NCBI GenBank assembly: GCA_014879845.1
Contig: JACSRI010000230.1
Span: 1-43,474 of the forward strand
Direction: 5' to 3'
Source of the DNA: Opitutaceae bacterium
GTDB taxonomy: Bacteria > Verrucomicrobiota > Verrucomicrobiia > Opitutales > Opitutaceae
DNA length: 43,474 nt
The translations under genes were made by a program, and so were the position numbers. The notes under the pieces were generated by a model that was not told the origin of the DNA, did not search any database, and was given only the letters and a program-made list of their open reading frames with translations. How positions within the stretch are numbered: the stretch's first letter is position 1; every line of letters starts with the position of its first letter. Shown piece by piece: positions 9,543 through 16,215 of this stretch.

Positions 9543-12095
9543 CTATCGCCACTCGTGGCGCGGGTAGCGGCGGGAGAGGGCGGGTTTGATTTCCGGATAC
9601 GTCACCTGCCAGAAGCGGGTGAGGTCGTCCGTCACCTGGAGCGGGCGATGGTTCGGGGCGAGTATCTCCATGCGGAGCGGAAGCCGGCCCTGCGCGATGA
9701 CGATATTCTTCTCCACGCCGAAGAGTTCCTGGATGCGCGCCGAGATGGTGGCGCCGCCGTCGCGCGTGTAGGTGATCTTGGCGCGGCGGCCGTTGGGCAT
9801 GTCGAGTTTCTCGGGCAGCATCCGCTCGAGCGCAGCGAGTTGCTCGGGCGCGAGCCAGTCCTTGAGCGTGCGCCAGAGATCGCAGTCGCGCACCTCGCGG
9901 AAACTGCGGGCGCCGTGCACGAGCTGCTCGAGGAGCGTGGGTTTGTCCTCGGGCGTGATGGGGGTGACGCCGTATTCGGGAAACAGCTTCGCGAGCAGGT
10001 TGACGCGTGCGATCCAGTGGTCGACCGACTCGTCCCACTGGGGCAGGGGGCAACGGCCGTCGAGGATCTCCTGCACGAGGATCTTCGTGGCGGCGTCGGT
10101 GGAGACCTCGCCGGCCTCGCGATCCTCGAGCACGAGGTCGCGGAAGACCTTGCGGCGGCGGACCATCACGCGCTTGGCCTGGGTGTCGAGCAGCGCGGTG
10201 TCCTCGGTGCGCAGCGATCCGGGGAACATGTCGGCCAGCAGGGCCTCGTCGATCGCCGTGCAGAGTGTGAGGATCGTGGTGACGTCGCCGCCGCGTCCGC
10301 CGATCTCGCTGATCTCGGCGGCGACGAGGAGCGGCGCCTTCTGCACCACGCTCTCGCGCGCAAGCATGCCGCGGCGGCCGTGCACGAGTTCGCAGCGCAG
10401 CGTGCCGGCGTCGAGCCGGCGCGCGACTTGGTCGGCGAAACCCGCTAGCACGCAGCGGACGATGGCCTCGCGACGCGCCGGAGCGTCCTCGAGGCGCAGG
10501 CCGGAGTTTTCCGCGAGGTCGAGAAACTGCCGGGCGAGCGGGCGCACGAGGCGCGCGCCCTGCGCGTGGATGCCGAGGCGGCGGCAGGCATCGACGTCGA
10601 AGTTGCGCTCCTCGGCGTAGCGCAGCGCGGCCAGCACGACAAAGAAATCGGAGACCGTCTCCTCGCCGAGCGCGGCCTCGCGAGCGTCGTCCATCTCCCG
10701 GCCGGTGCTCTTGAGCAGGATGGAGCGACCCTGGGTGAGCGCGGCGATGAGCGCGACGTCGTGCACGCAACCGAGGCGGCCAGCCTCGACGAGCATGCGT
10801 GCGTAGCGCGGGTGGGCGGGGAAGGCCAGCATCTGGCGGCCGACCTCGGTGATCGCGCCGTTGGTGGCGTCGAGGGCGCCGAGGTCGGTGAGCAGTTGCT
10901 CGGCGCGGGCGAGGGCCTTCGGGTCGGGCGGCTCGAGCCAGGGGAAGTTGACTGCGTCGACGATGTCAGCGGCCTTGAGCGTGAGGAGCACCTCGGCGAG
11001 GTCGCGGCGCTTGATCTCGGGAAGTTCGGCGACCGGGCGGTGCGCGTGCTCGCGCTCCGTCCAGAGGCGCAGGCACACGCCGGGCGCAGTGCGGCCGGCG
11101 CGGCCGGCGCGTTGTTCGGACGAGGCCTGGCTGATCTTTTCGATGAGCAGCGTGTCGATGCCGCGGTGCGGATCGAAGCGGGCGATCCGCGCGAGGCCGG
11201 CGTCGACCACGAGACGCACGCCCGGAATCGTGAGCGAGGTTTCCGCGACATTGGTCGCCACGATGATTTTGCGGCGTTCAGAGTCGGCCACGGCGCGATC
11301 CTGGTCGGCGGGTGGGAGCTCGCCGTGCAGGGGCAGGATGTCGAAGTCGCGTGCGCCGAGGCGGAGGCGCAAGGCCTCGCACGTGCGCGAGATCTCATAC
11401 GCGCCGGGCATGAAAACGAGCGCATCGCCCTCGATGCCGCCCGAGGCAAGCGCGCGCTCGGTCAGCGTGGCCGCAACATCCCACGGCGGGGTTTTCTCGA
11501 AATCGACGGATTTCTCGAGATAGCGGACGTCGACCGGGTAGGTGCGGCCCTGCGAAGTCACCTGGGCGCAGGGCTGCAGGTAGGTCTTGAGGCGCTCGGT
11601 CTCGAGCGTGGCCGACATCACGATGATGCGGAGGTCGGGGCGTGTCGTGCACTGGAGCTGGAGGGCTCGGCCGAGCGTGATGTCGCCGTAGAGGTGGCGC
11701 TCGTGGAATTCGTCGAACACGACGACAGACACGCCGCGTAGTTGCGGATCGGCGACCATCTGGCGGAGCAGGATGCCCTCGGTCACGAAGCGGATGATCG
11801 TGCTGCGCGATACGCGGGACTCGAGCCGCACCTGGTAGCCGACCTCGGCGCCGAGCGGCACGTCCATCTCCTCGGCCACGCGGCGCGCGAGCAGGCGGGC
11901 GGCGATGCGTCGTGGCTGGAGCACGACGGCCTGGCCCTCGCGCAGCAGGCCGGCGCGCGCGAGCATCTGGGGGATCTGCGTCGATTTGCCGGAGCCGGTC
12001 GGCGCCTGCACCACCACGCGCCCGTGCGCGCTCACGGCGTCGAGCAGCGGTCGCTCGACGTCGTAGATGGGCAGCGTGCGTGGATCGACGTGCAT
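9543..12095 (-). CDS. hrpB: ATP-dependent helicase HrpB
   Basis: This 850-residue protein is a DEAH-type superfamily 2 helicase of the HrpB group. Motifs appear in order: Walker A APTGSGKST (31-39), DEFH (128-131), SAT (161-163), TNVAETSLTI (281-290) and QRAGRAGR (328-335). The HA2-like region follows, and then the HrpB-specific C-terminal domain near PNGRRAKITYTRDG. Length and start agree with the family. HrpB is widespread; its RNA or nucleoprotein substrate is not firmly known. The gene is transcribed alone, away from the structured RNA candidate at 12460. Confidence 0.97.
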   Translation of the reverse strand: MHVDPRTLPIYDVERPLLDAVSAHGRVVVQAPTGSGKSTQIPQMLARAGLLREGQAVVLQPRRIAARLLARRVAEEMDVPLGAEVGYQVRLESRVSRSTIIRFVTEGILLRQMVADPQLRGVSVVVFDEFHERHLYGDITLGRALQLQCTTRPDLRIIVMSATLETERLKTYLQPCAQVTSQGRTYPVDVRYLEKSVDFEKTPPWDVAATLTERALASGGIEGDALVFMPGAYEISRTCEALRLRLGARDFDILPLHGELPPADQDRAVADSERRKIIVATNVAETSLTIPGVRLVVDAGLARIARFDPHRGIDTLLIEKISQASSEQRAGRAGRTAPGVCLRLWTEREHAHRPVAELPEIKRRDLAEVLLTLKAADIVDAVNFPWLEPPDPKALARAEQLLTDLGALDATNGAITEVGRQMLAFPAHPRYARMLVEAGRLGCVHDVALIAALTQGRSILLKSTGREMDDAREAALGEETVSDFFVVLAALRYAEERNFDVDACRRLGIHAQGARLVRPLARQFLDLAENSGLRLEDAPARREAIVRCVLAGFADQVARRLDAGTLRCELVHGRRGMLARESVVQKAPLLVAAEISEIGGRGGDVTTILTLCTAIDEALLADMFPGSLRTEDTALLDTQAKRVMVRRRKVFRDLVLEDREAGEVSTDAATKILVQEILDGRCPLPQWDESVDHWIARVNLLAKLFPEYGVTPITPEDKPTLLEQLVHGARSFREVRDCDLWRTLKDWLAPEQLAALERMLPEKLDMPNGRRAKITYTRDGGATISARIQELFGVEKNIVIAQGRLPLRMEILAPNHRPLQVTDDLTRFWQVTYPEIKPALSRRYPRHEWR

Positions 12096-12163
12096 GGAGA
12101 TGAAGCAGCGGAGATAGGCGGATGCGCGCGCGGCGTGAAAGCGGAAAGGTTTCCAGAGATTGG

Positions 12164-12360
12164 GTCACAGAGAACACGGAGGGGACACAGAGTTCACAGA
12201 GGCACGAACGAGATTCGGACGTTCGGCGCAGTGCGCGGGGGCCGAAAATCACGCGGATTCAGAGTGGAACGAATGTGGGCGCGAGCGTCGGGCCGGTTGG
12301 CTTGCGGCGCCGAATCGGCGCTCCGTGACCTCCGTGCCTCCTCTGTGCTCTCTGTGACCT
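12164..12360. repeat. Dispersed CACAGAG-type inverted repeat, copy 1
   Basis: The left arm (12164-12202) has repeated CACAGAG units (GTCACAGAGAACACGGAG, then GACACAGAGTTCACAGAG). The right arm (12321-12360) has the complement (CTCCGTGACCTCCGTG, then CTCTGTGCTCTCTGTGAC). The spacer of about 118 bases includes a CACGCGGATTCAGAG piece. It lies upstream of hrpB and of the structured RNA. Sister copies are at 24176, 25291 and 43193. Confidence 0.85.
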
Positions 12361-12459
12361 GCCTTGTTCGAGCCGCCTCGCGCCGGTGAATAACCGGTGG
12401 ATATCTTTATTCACAAGTTATGCATTTGTGCTTGATGGTGAGTATCTTGTGCAAAAGAA

Positions 12460-13357
12460 AGTCTTGAAAACCCCGGGCCGGTTTCGTTTCATCATCCCGT
12501 TCTTTGAAAGAACTGGGAGACGCCCGGTGGAATGAAAAAACCGCTGGTGACGCCCCAGAGATAATCCCGGGTGACCGGGGAACGGACGGTGGAGCTGGTC
12601 CACCGGTCCCCTTCCGACCGCGAGGTCGGGTAGGCAGCTTTCACCAGTTCCTCTGGGCGGGGTCGCACCCGCCGAGAAATGCGAATAAGGAACTGTGGCG
12701 GCGAGGCGCGAACTAGAAACCGCGACCGAGCCGAGTCAGGTCTGTCGGGAGTTTCGACCCGGCGGACTGACACAGTGACCCAGAGGGTCCAGGTTACTAC
12801 TGTGAGCCAGCACGGGCACGCAGGCCGGGCGAGACCACCTCGCCAAAAGGCCCCAGCTGCGAAGCGGGGCGCGAAAGCGGCGGGCGGGTTCGGGGAGCGG
12901 GCGAATGTGGCAAAGTTCGCAAAACCTCCTGATTGGGGCGGATGGAAAAACCGATCCACCCAACTGCAATAACGAGGTAACCTGAGGGATAAGAGGTCAG
13001 ACCCGTCGCGCGGGGTCAACGCACCGAGACCATCGGTGGCCGCCCCTGCGAAAAACGGTGGTGACGCGATCGCACCTGAATTGCAGGCGTGTCAGCACCA
13101 TGTCCGGCGAGCTGTCATCGGCAGATGGTGGCCGAACCGGGCTAAGAGGCCTCACCCAATAAATTCCGCGCCGCAAGGGGCGGGACGGTCCTGCTATGAG
13201 ACCGACAACTCTGCTTGCCGCAGGGAATGGCGTCGGGGAGCCGGCAGCCGATCGCAAGGTCGAGCGCCCAATGTCGGCGCAAGGGAAAGAGAGCGTGGCG
13301 AACTCCCACTCCCGATATTACCCCGCGGGGCCGCAAGGTCCCGCGGGGTCTTATTTT
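12460..13357 (+). ncRNA. Large (about 900 nt) structured non-coding RNA of unrecognised class
   Basis: No credible protein is coded here, but the + strand is packed with hairpins. Clear helices (all read by eye): 12495-12518 (TCCC and GTTCTT arms), 12566-12579 (GTGA loop), 12584-12609, 12614-12629 (GCGA loop), 12735-12771 (14 pairs, two G-U), 12828-12844, 12850-12870 (GCGA loop), 12870-12879 (GAAA loop), 12933-12963, 13000-13017, 13022-13038, 13096-13130, 13166-13183 (GCAA loop), 13186-13204, 13211-13223, 13249-13262 (GCAA loop). Unpaired A-rich joints link them. GNRA loops occur only when read on +, and a strong terminator ends the unit on +. An AT-rich tract at 12398-12470 probably holds the promoter, but no clean consensus was found, so the 5' end is approximate. 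I see no RNase P P4 core, tmRNA TPsiC arm, SRP or rRNA signature, or group II domain V. Size and style recall GOLLD, ROOL and OLE RNAs; membership was not tested. Confidence 0.75.
13320..13357 (+). terminator. Strong Rho-independent terminator of the large RNA
   Basis: A perfect 10-bp outer stem (13320-13329 with 13340-13349, core CCCCGCGGG) continues through G-U, C-G and C-G pairs to a GCAA tetraloop and is followed by CTTATTTT. The T-run is on the + strand only, which fixes the direction of the transcript. Confidence 0.9.
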
Positions 13358-13503
13358 GTACGCCTGGCGCGCGGAGCCGGCGCGCGGTGGGCGGGATGCG
13401 GCACTCCTGCACCGCCCGCGACGGCGAGCGTCGTCTCGACGCTTTCCGCGATCGAGCACGCGCGTCTTGACGTCGTGTGCGGCGGCCCTCCCTTAATCGC
13501 GCC

Positions 13504-14172
13504 ATGTCCTCACCTTCAGCTCTCGATCCGCATGCGGGCCGGGCGGTGTTTCACGCCGGCGTGCCGCTCGACGCAGCGCGCGCCGTCGTGATCCTGCTCC
13601 ACGGTCGTGGCGGCGACGCCGAGCGTGCCCTCGATATGTCACGCATGCTCCCGGGCGAGGGCGTCTGCTATCTGTCGCCGGCCGCAGCCGATAACTCCTG
13701 GTATCCGCAGCGCTTCATCGCGCCGCTCCAGCTGAACGAGCCGTGGCTCAGCTCCGCCCTTGCCGTGGTGTCGCGCGAAGTGGACCGCGCGGCCGCGGCC
13801 GGCATTCCGCGCGAGCGTGTGCTCATCGGCGGCTTCTCCCAGGGCGCGTGCCTCTCGCTCGAGTGGGCGCTGCGCACGGGCGGGCGACTCGGTGGCATCT
13901 TCGCCCTGAGCGGCGGTGTGATCGGCCAGCCAGGCGCGGCGCGCGCGTTTGATCGCGACCTCGCGGGCACGCCAGTGCTTCTGGCCTGTGGCGATTCCGA
14001 CGGGCACATTCCGCTGGCCAGTGTGAAGGAGAGCGCCGCCGTCCTGCGCGCACACGGCGCCACCCTGACCGAGAAGATCTATCCAGGTCTCGGGCATGTC
14101 ATCGTCTCCGACGAGTTCGCACGCATCGGTCGCATGATCGCGACCGTGGCCGACGCGGGCGCAAGTCGTTGA
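13504..14172 (+). CDS. Phospholipase/carboxylesterase family alpha/beta hydrolase
   Basis: This 222-residue protein belongs to the small carboxylesterase/thioesterase group (PF02230 type). The nucleophile is Ser112 in GGFSQGAC, the acid is most likely Asp166 in CGDSDGHIP, and the base is His198 in YPGLGHV. LLHGRGGD near residue 31 forms the oxyanion-hole loop. No signal peptide is seen, so it is cytosolic. The ATG at 13504 is used because homology starts soon after it; a start 27 bases upstream is possible. It begins 146 bases after the RNA terminator, so it is probably not part of that transcript. Natural substrate unknown (esters or acyl thioesters). Confidence 0.88.
   Translation: MSSPSALDPHAGRAVFHAGVPLDAARAVVILLHGRGGDAERALDMSRMLPGEGVCYLSPAAADNSWYPQRFIAPLQLNEPWLSSALAVVSREVDRAAAAGIPRERVLIGGFSQGACLSLEWALRTGGRLGGIFALSGGVIGQPGAARAFDRDLAGTPVLLACGDSDGHIPLASVKESAAVLRAHGATLTEKIYPGLGHVIVSDEFARIGRMIATVADAGASR

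Positions 14173-14385: not shown

Positions 14386-16215
<1,830 letters not shown>

Follow-up and report, generated by a model that had tools for sequence, protein, structure and literature searches.

A MISL-family RNA in an Opitutaceae genome, with a boxA-like 5′ motif and, upstream, conserved clustered sites resembling DnaA boxes

The window, by which we mean the whole analysed stretch of 43,474 nucleotides from an Opitutaceae bacterium, carries a large structured RNA between two protein genes. On one side lies hrpB, a divergent neighbour on the minus strand (9543-12095, assigned by Pfam HrpB_C and synteny); on the other, downstream, lies typA/bipA on the plus strand (14386-16215, assigned by Pfam BipA_C and synteny, with a start codon of our choosing). 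A cmscan of the window places between them a full-length match to the MISL family, Rfam RF03079, at 12559-13306 of the plus strand. The match covers model positions 1-751 of 751 and scores 488.9 bits (E 2.1e-147) against a gathering cut-off of 274.6; it is the sole match above any gathering cut-off in the window. That the stretch is a member of MISL is virtually certain.

The locus had been singled out from its letters alone. The original prediction of a structured RNA agrees with the Rfam match in strand and approximate position, and its exclusion of RNase P, tmRNA, SRP and rRNA is upheld by the cmscan. Its proposal of a divergent member of GOLLD, ROOL or OLE, or else of a new class, gives way to a catalogued family; by the prediction's own rule, such a match refutes the novelty only. 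The models of GOLLD, ROOL and OLE, all presumably in Rfam, gave no match at the gathering cut-off in the window, nor at E ≤ 1 in 12000-13700. The only other match at E ≤ 1 around the locus, to a group II intron fragment model (18.1 bits versus a cut-off of 36), is most likely due to chance. What lies here is a genuine structured RNA, about 860 letters long, whose class has been catalogued before and is thus not new. This verdict comes from homology and covariation, not from folding energy: the z-scores are -4.7 for the plus and -5.3 for the minus strand (20 shuffles each), the minus strand folding about as well as the plus strand relative to shuffles. The original remark that no credible coding frame exists needs qualification, as open reading frames of up to 175 aa overlap the MISL region. 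The family, which reportedly goes back to Weinberg 2017 (NAR), is a name without an assigned function as far as our limited literature search reached. SHAPE data exist for a section of a MISL RNA, according to the Ribonanza source (PMC10925082).

In its own genome MISL is single-copy, with one match. Homologues were to be expected in related genomes if the RNA was genuine, and they occur both in the same family and elsewhere in Verrucomicrobiota. Among 200 family genomes, 103 gave a MISL match at E ≤ 0.001, 101 of them over the gathering cut-off, and 33 of 49 genera are represented; the RNA is present in 81 of the 147 more complete genomes. Since 97 of the 200 gave no match (66 among the more complete ones), MISL is dispensable in this lineage. 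Draws from the phylum and the order, both of which contain family members, gave matches in 31 of 387 genomes (28 over the cut-off) and 48 of 223 (35 over the cut-off), respectively, and none of 14 well-known control genomes gave one. Scanning named genomes with a conserved pattern yielded at least 118 stretches; all 80 matches listed belong to Verrucomicrobiota by title, including Opitutaceae, Pedosphaera, Limisphaera, Verrucomicrobiales and others, with one titled Akkermansia. For the comparisons below, 100 further family loci were added to the window, together with 20 from other lineages outside the family. Ten of the 111 match rows in the family search were left unfetched (3 full-length, 7 partial or weak), and sequence was fetched for 20 of the 39 out-of-family genomes with a match.

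A second MISL, in another gene context and without the DnaA-box cluster described below, was seen in genomes G095, G067, G145, G046 and G092 (loci L094, L119, L127, L128 and L130, respectively; L129 was grouped with them). Two weak matches in one genome, of 103 and 40 bits (G199:C5), are possibly decaying or very divergent copies. By blastn, which could miss distant copies, no similar record was found among phages and plasmids. A link to these elements was rejected on this ground, the one IMG/VR contig at hand being a probable chimera that we describe further below.

Within the family, hrpB stands divergently beside MISL in 86 of 101 loci, at a median of 273 nt, and typA follows in the same direction in 79 of 101, at a median of about 1 kb, several contigs ending too soon to tell. 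Neither gene was found at any of the 20 out-of-family loci, with up to 7 kb fetched on each side. All 22 genomes examined among the 97 without MISL have hrpB, and in seven of them typA lies within 1.5 kb of it, the gap being 147-437 nt in five and about 1.1 kb in two. In the 30 loci of this search nhmmer gave no MISL match; a profile of the same kind recovers every one of the 7 control loci, even when built without 6 of them. MISL is gained or lost at the hrpB-typA site. Because these neighbours are absent from the out-of-family stretches fetched and paired without MISL in some family genomes, they reflect an inherited position and not a function, and we rejected them as conserved gene partners.

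Covariation was assessed in 120 extended homologues aligned with MAFFT. The score was a G statistic with APC correction, for which 20 alignments simulated along the tree served as the null; L144, which meets a contig end, was omitted. The procedure is our own and R-scape-like, not R-scape itself, and a few of the pairs at E < 5 can be expected to be due to chance. Eight pairs covary at E < 0.05 and 28 at E < 5. All 28 best-covarying pairs are at least 80% canonical and 18 are pairs of the Rfam model; of the other ten, five belong to the terminator, two are long-range contacts and three lie inside or next to Rfam hairpins. Mapped on the window, the Rfam structure has five 4-base hairpin loops, of which four are GNRA (GTGA 12571-12574, GCGA 12620-12623, GCAA 13173-13176 and GCAA 13254-13257) and one is not (GGCA 13120-13123). 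The predicted count of at least six internal GNRA loops is thereby reduced to four, plus the GCAA of the terminator.

Outside the Rfam model lies a 5′ domain (12513-12558, plus strand), whose closing helix, 12513-12517/12554-12558, surrounds an inner hairpin, 12525-12530/12541-12546. The closing helix is 99% paired in 101 family sequences (12-47% in slid controls) and 92% paired in the 120; the inner hairpin reaches 85-91% per pair. Compensatory changes indicate that the RNA very probably also forms two pseudoknots, both of which cross Rfam helices. In pseudoknot 1, the plus-strand segments 12792-12797 and 12977-12982 join in six pairs, each 95-98% canonical, with the changes GGTTGC/GCAACC, GGTTAC/GTAACC and GGCTGC/GCAGCC; over the eight columns tested, pairing is 79% versus 21-58% in slid controls. 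Pseudoknot 2 joins a loop strand, 13193-13197, to 13227-13231, also on the plus strand, in five pairs, each 96-100% canonical (GCCAT/GTGGC, GCTAT/ATAGC, GCTGC/GCAGC), and is 99% paired versus 20-61% in slid controls. An outer helix, 13283-13285/13311-13313, is 90-96% paired but hardly above slid controls, and we do not claim it.

The RNA has a Rho-independent terminator of its own on the plus strand, as had been predicted. Its stem at 13320-13349, with a GCAA loop, is followed by a T tail to 13357; the stem covaries among the 120 homologues and is 90% paired in them, versus 25-60% when slid. At the other end we propose, from its position, a sigma-70 promoter at 12464-12492 of the plus strand (TTGAAA as -35 box at 12464-12469, a spacer of 17 nt, and TTTCAT). 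It lies at -35 from the 5′ motif described below and scores 9 of 12, its distance being that of the TTGACA promoters outside the family. There, a TTGAC-type promoter occurs at a fixed distance from the 5′ motif, about 36 nt upstream of it or about 50 nt where an extra hairpin precedes the motif, and 12 of 18 loci score at least 9 of 12 (shuffles 13.6%). For the GC-rich family we deduce the promoter from its position: among 101 family loci only that of the window reaches a score of 9, where shuffles would give about three, and an automated promoter scan of the window found none. As the family promoter fails to beat shuffles, we lowered our confidence that MISL is a stand-alone transcript to a level at which we still call it likely.

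The RNA probably spans about 12499 to 13357. Of the extent first proposed, 12460-13357, the end agrees with the terminator; the start falls at the proposed promoter. Compared with this probable transcription unit, the Rfam model starts 60 nt after the likely RNA start, stops before the terminator and, being a covariance model, holds no pseudoknots; the upstream DnaA boxes also lie outside it. What the model misses amounts to a 5′ stretch of about 60 nt, the two pseudoknots and the terminator.

Upstream of the proposed promoter the window contains three sites resembling DnaA boxes: TTATTCACC at 12385-12393 (minus strand, one mismatch to TTATNCACA), the exact box TTATTCACA at 12407-12415 (plus strand) and TTTTGCACA at 12448-12456 (minus strand, one mismatch). 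Their positions recur. Family boxes lie mostly at -80 to -100 from the 5′ motif on the plus strand, where sites recur outside the family as well, and at -50 to -60 and -110 on the minus strand, the bin around -110 alone holding 42 boxes in 94 family loci. Out-of-family boxes lie mostly on the plus strand, from -70 to -120. Neighbouring boxes on the same strand are mostly 11 bp apart (11 or 12 outside the family), and 3 of 320 boxes overlie the core promoter. The commonest form in the family is TTATTCACC; exact boxes are found in 28 of 94 main family loci and in 16 of 19 outside.

We counted as a box any 9-mer within one mismatch of TTATNCACA, over a 260-nt interval that extends from -320 to -60 relative to the Rfam start; one family locus with too little upstream sequence was excluded. 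All 94 main family loci have at least one box and 87 at least two, with 2.76 per locus on average; Markov shuffles give 0.077 per sequence and at least two boxes in 0.4%, and of 1815 other windows in these loci 0.22% contain two or more. In the out-of-family set, 18 of 19 loci have at least two boxes (shuffles 3.2%; 0 of 363 windows). A later set came from named genomes with core sequences differing from the first set: 119 stretches, of which 58 were dropped as already seen and 14 as too short, leaving 47, three of them without the 5′ motif and unscored. Among the 44 scored, 39 have at least one box and 34 at least two, and none of 1132 background windows has two. The six extra or odd-context MISL copies have one box in one case and two in none. 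Upstream regions of hrpB in MISL-less genomes have two boxes in 0 of 18 cases (one in 3 of 18), so the sites go with MISL and not with hrpB. Over the whole window the count of six boxes, with 4.2 expected, is not above chance; the signal thus consists in the clustering at 12385, 12407 and 12448 and in its conservation.

These sites are likely DnaA boxes, an identity that rests on the 9-mer. In its support, 9 of 14 readable genomes have an exact TTATNCACA no more than 140 nt upstream of their dnaA model match, and in G220 an exact 11-bp tandem pair also stands upstream of dnaA. In the window's own genome, the 9-mer of the 12407-12415 site is found 61 nt upstream of the dnaA model match. Across 19 genomes, exact same-strand tandem pairs gave 11 matches (0-3 each, none in 10) and a reversed control pattern 3; the only such pair in G020 and in G063 lies just upstream of MISL, and none lies at MISL in the other 17. 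Taking the sites together, we lean slightly towards DnaA as a controller of MISL. Other exact tandem pairs, of TTATNCAC, were noticed near other genes (L219, L223, L224 and L226), in L226 beside a frame that by eye resembles aspartate-semialdehyde dehydrogenase; they are candidate further DnaA targets.

The probable 5′ end of the RNA carries a boxA-like motif of 15 bases, GTTCTTTGAAAGAAC (12499-12513, plus strand), which can form a short hairpin. In 108 of 121 loci the pattern TTC[CT]TTGA turns up in the 150 nt ahead of the Rfam start. The other 13 include several variants (GTTCATTGA, GTCCCTTGA and GATCTTTGA), one locus cut by a contig end and two or three with no good match. A variant start, GTTCCTTGATAGCAC, is common to L119, L270, L295 and L311. 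The motif is a near-palindrome, and GAAC is conserved in most loci, so that a plain hairpin is possible. L148, L149, L151 and L156 no longer allow the full GTTC/GAAC pairing and keep the CTTTGA core. In these four and in L157 we noticed by eye a separate hairpin, with a TTCG or GCAA loop, upstream of the boxA-like motif; the order of hairpin and motif recalls boxB before boxA.

Of 18 genomes with a readable 16S leader, 16 have TC[TA]TTGA in it, among them the window's own genome. There the boxA-like core of the window, GTTCTTTGAAA, agrees with that of the 16S leader, GGTTCTTTGAAAT. The leader reads GGTTCTTTGAAATC in the own genome, TGTTCTTTGAAATT in G606 and TTGATCTTTGATAA in G255; leaders without the exact core are those of G220 (TTGTTCTTTTAAAT) and G491 (GAGATCTTTCACAG), the latter genome having CGCTCTTTGACAT in its 16S-23S spacer. 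In 13 further genomes TC[TA]TTGA lies roughly 100-145 nt before 16S in all, in one of them by eye. Two of the 13 have CATTGA in both leader and MISL, and seven others, of Limisphaera/Pedosphaera type, have CTTTGA in the leader but CATTGA in MISL. Some lineages carry CCTTGA or CATTGA in the MISL motif; family MISLs mostly have CCTTGATA, and the two family 16S leaders seen have CTTTGAAA. Judged by these letters, the resemblance between MISL and 16S boxA is strong in the window and looser elsewhere.

We consider it reasonably probable that the 5′ motif acts as boxA. Both the rRNA leader boxA and the MISL motif have a CTTTGA core and stand at the start of a long structured RNA that is not translated; unlike in rRNA boxA, GAAC follows the motif in most MISLs and permits a hairpin. 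According to PMC5725501, NusB/E binds boxA, suhB carries a boxA, and noncoding RNAs lie outside the boxA survey of that paper. The same paper states that on E. coli rRNA the Nus factors mainly serve folding, and that rRNA itself resists Rho (PMC5725501); Rho protection is for this reason the less certain half of a Nus-based proposal. In Legionella Lens, the boxA of a CRISPR array, GTTCTTTAAAA, raised precursor RNA about tenfold in a synthetic array, according to PMC7862264.

Comparison among loci establishes, at the level of sequence, the family membership, the covarying structure with its two pseudoknots, the terminator, the conserved 5′ motif and the phased cluster of DnaA-box-like sites. 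Our best reading, held with moderate confidence, adds to these the inferred binding of DnaA and Nus factors: MISL would be a large RNA transcribed on its own, under DnaA control and with the help of Nus. RNA polymerase would start near 12499 from the promoter at 12464-12492. DnaA, at sites centred about -110, -88 and -47 from that start, outside the core promoter, would act as a transcription factor, most likely as an activator, tying MISL output to replication initiation or growth. The emerging 5′ motif would load NusB-S10 and the Nus complex, as rRNA boxA does, and this loading would let the long untranslated transcript be completed, protected from Rho, and properly folded; transcription would stop near 13357. 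As the terminator closes MISL and its neighbours differ between families, MISL most likely works as a folded RNA or an RNA-protein particle, not as an mRNA leader or a cis-regulator.

Other readings of the locus have to be weighed against this one. MISL might be an ordinary, stand-alone member of its family whose upstream repeats are another transcription factor's sites and whose 5′ motif is just a protective terminal hairpin. Another factor is suggested by the prevalence of TTATTCACC among family sites and by the exact box being found in only 28 of 94 main family loci, but this leaves aside the TTATNCACA upstream of dnaA in 9 of 14 genomes and the 11-bp tandem upstream of dnaA in G220. The near-palindromic motif with its GAAC conserved in most loci, and a boxA match to 16S leaders that is loose in several clades, would suit a terminal hairpin; the CTTTGA core nevertheless stays where full GTTC/GAAC pairing is lost (L148, L149, L151 and L156). 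We regard this account as rather unlikely. MISL could also be read as a long 5′ leader of the gene that follows it (typA in the family), or as regulating that gene in cis; the co-directional typA of 79 of 101 family loci would fit. Against this reading stand the covarying terminator between MISL and typA, a median distance of about 1 kb often occupied by another frame, the lack of typA in all 20 outside-family loci over the stretch fetched, and hrpB-typA pairs that exist without MISL; it is extremely improbable.

That MISL marks the replication origin, the boxes being oriC and MISL an origin-encoded RNA, is highly improbable. A cluster of DnaA boxes is what such a reading would call for, and the single exact tandem pair found in G020, like that of G063, sits just upstream of MISL. 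The GC skew of G020 weakens across MISL without a change of sign (-0.22 at -30 kb, -0.02 at +30 kb), and that of the window turns from minus to plus near 8-9 kb, a sign that 43 kb cannot settle. Skew is higher downstream than upstream of MISL in 37 of 70 family loci and 8 of 12 outside loci with enough flank. The complete genomes G020 and G491, sampled in 10 stretches of 20 kb each, have no minus-to-plus switch at MISL, the switch lying 1-3 Mb away, and in ten single-contig genomes, taken as circular, dnaA is 0.16-2.5 Mb from MISL. We rejected the origin on these two grounds, and because MISL is not at the origin, DnaA remains to be read as a transcription factor or as bound at a titration site. 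DnaA titration or reactivation sites are known in datA, DARS and the DnaA-box clusters of Bacillus; at such a site, MISL transcription would be secondary or would load or unload DnaA. Clustered boxes away from dnaA at a conserved place would fit, but their spacing from the 5′ motif is preserved where the flanking genes differ, and selection acts on the structure of the RNA as well; a titration site is improbable.

Returning to a DnaA-controlled, Nus-assisted transcript, a further step would make MISL replication- or cell-cycle-coupled, DnaA directly switching an rRNA-like, Nus-assisted unit whose sole product is a pseudoknotted RNA. We put this forward tentatively, as a possibility that falls short of our expectation. 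If true, an orphan large RNA family would be wired to the replication initiator across a bacterial phylum, and MISL may in turn act back on DnaA, on replication or on the supply of ribosomes. Should DnaA control hold, the replication initiator would drive a large structural RNA, a surprise to both the RNA and the replication fields. The promoter-phased cluster of DnaA-box-like sites and the boxA-like start offer a first testable handle on MISL control. The 5′ domain, the pseudoknots, the boxA-like start and the putative DnaA-box promoter are new to us, none having been met in a limited literature search.

Like MISL, OLE, GOLLD and ROOL are large, highly structured bacterial RNAs, as described in PMC12286853. 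CcnA of Caulobacter offers a likeness of another kind, by description only: it is a noncoding RNA tied to bacterial cell-cycle control, acting on CtrA and GcrA by the title of PMC8959179, whereas MISL has no known target.

Two minor observations may be added. In the IMG/VR contig L365:1-2347, a MISL fragment of about 0.5 kb is joined to a levivirus-like RNA phage, which has a maturation protein by Pfam (Phage_mat-A, 7.1e-28). The fragment is cut at its 5′ end and, at 254.5 bits over model positions 1-567, falls slightly short of the gathering cut-off. RNA-phage contigs normally derive from RNA sequencing. The contig is probably an assembly chimera from RNA data, and the join suggests, circumstantially, that MISL was present as RNA. 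In the window, imperfect inverted repeats of the CACAGAG/CTCTGTG type occupy 12160-12370, outside MISL, between hrpB and the DnaA boxes.
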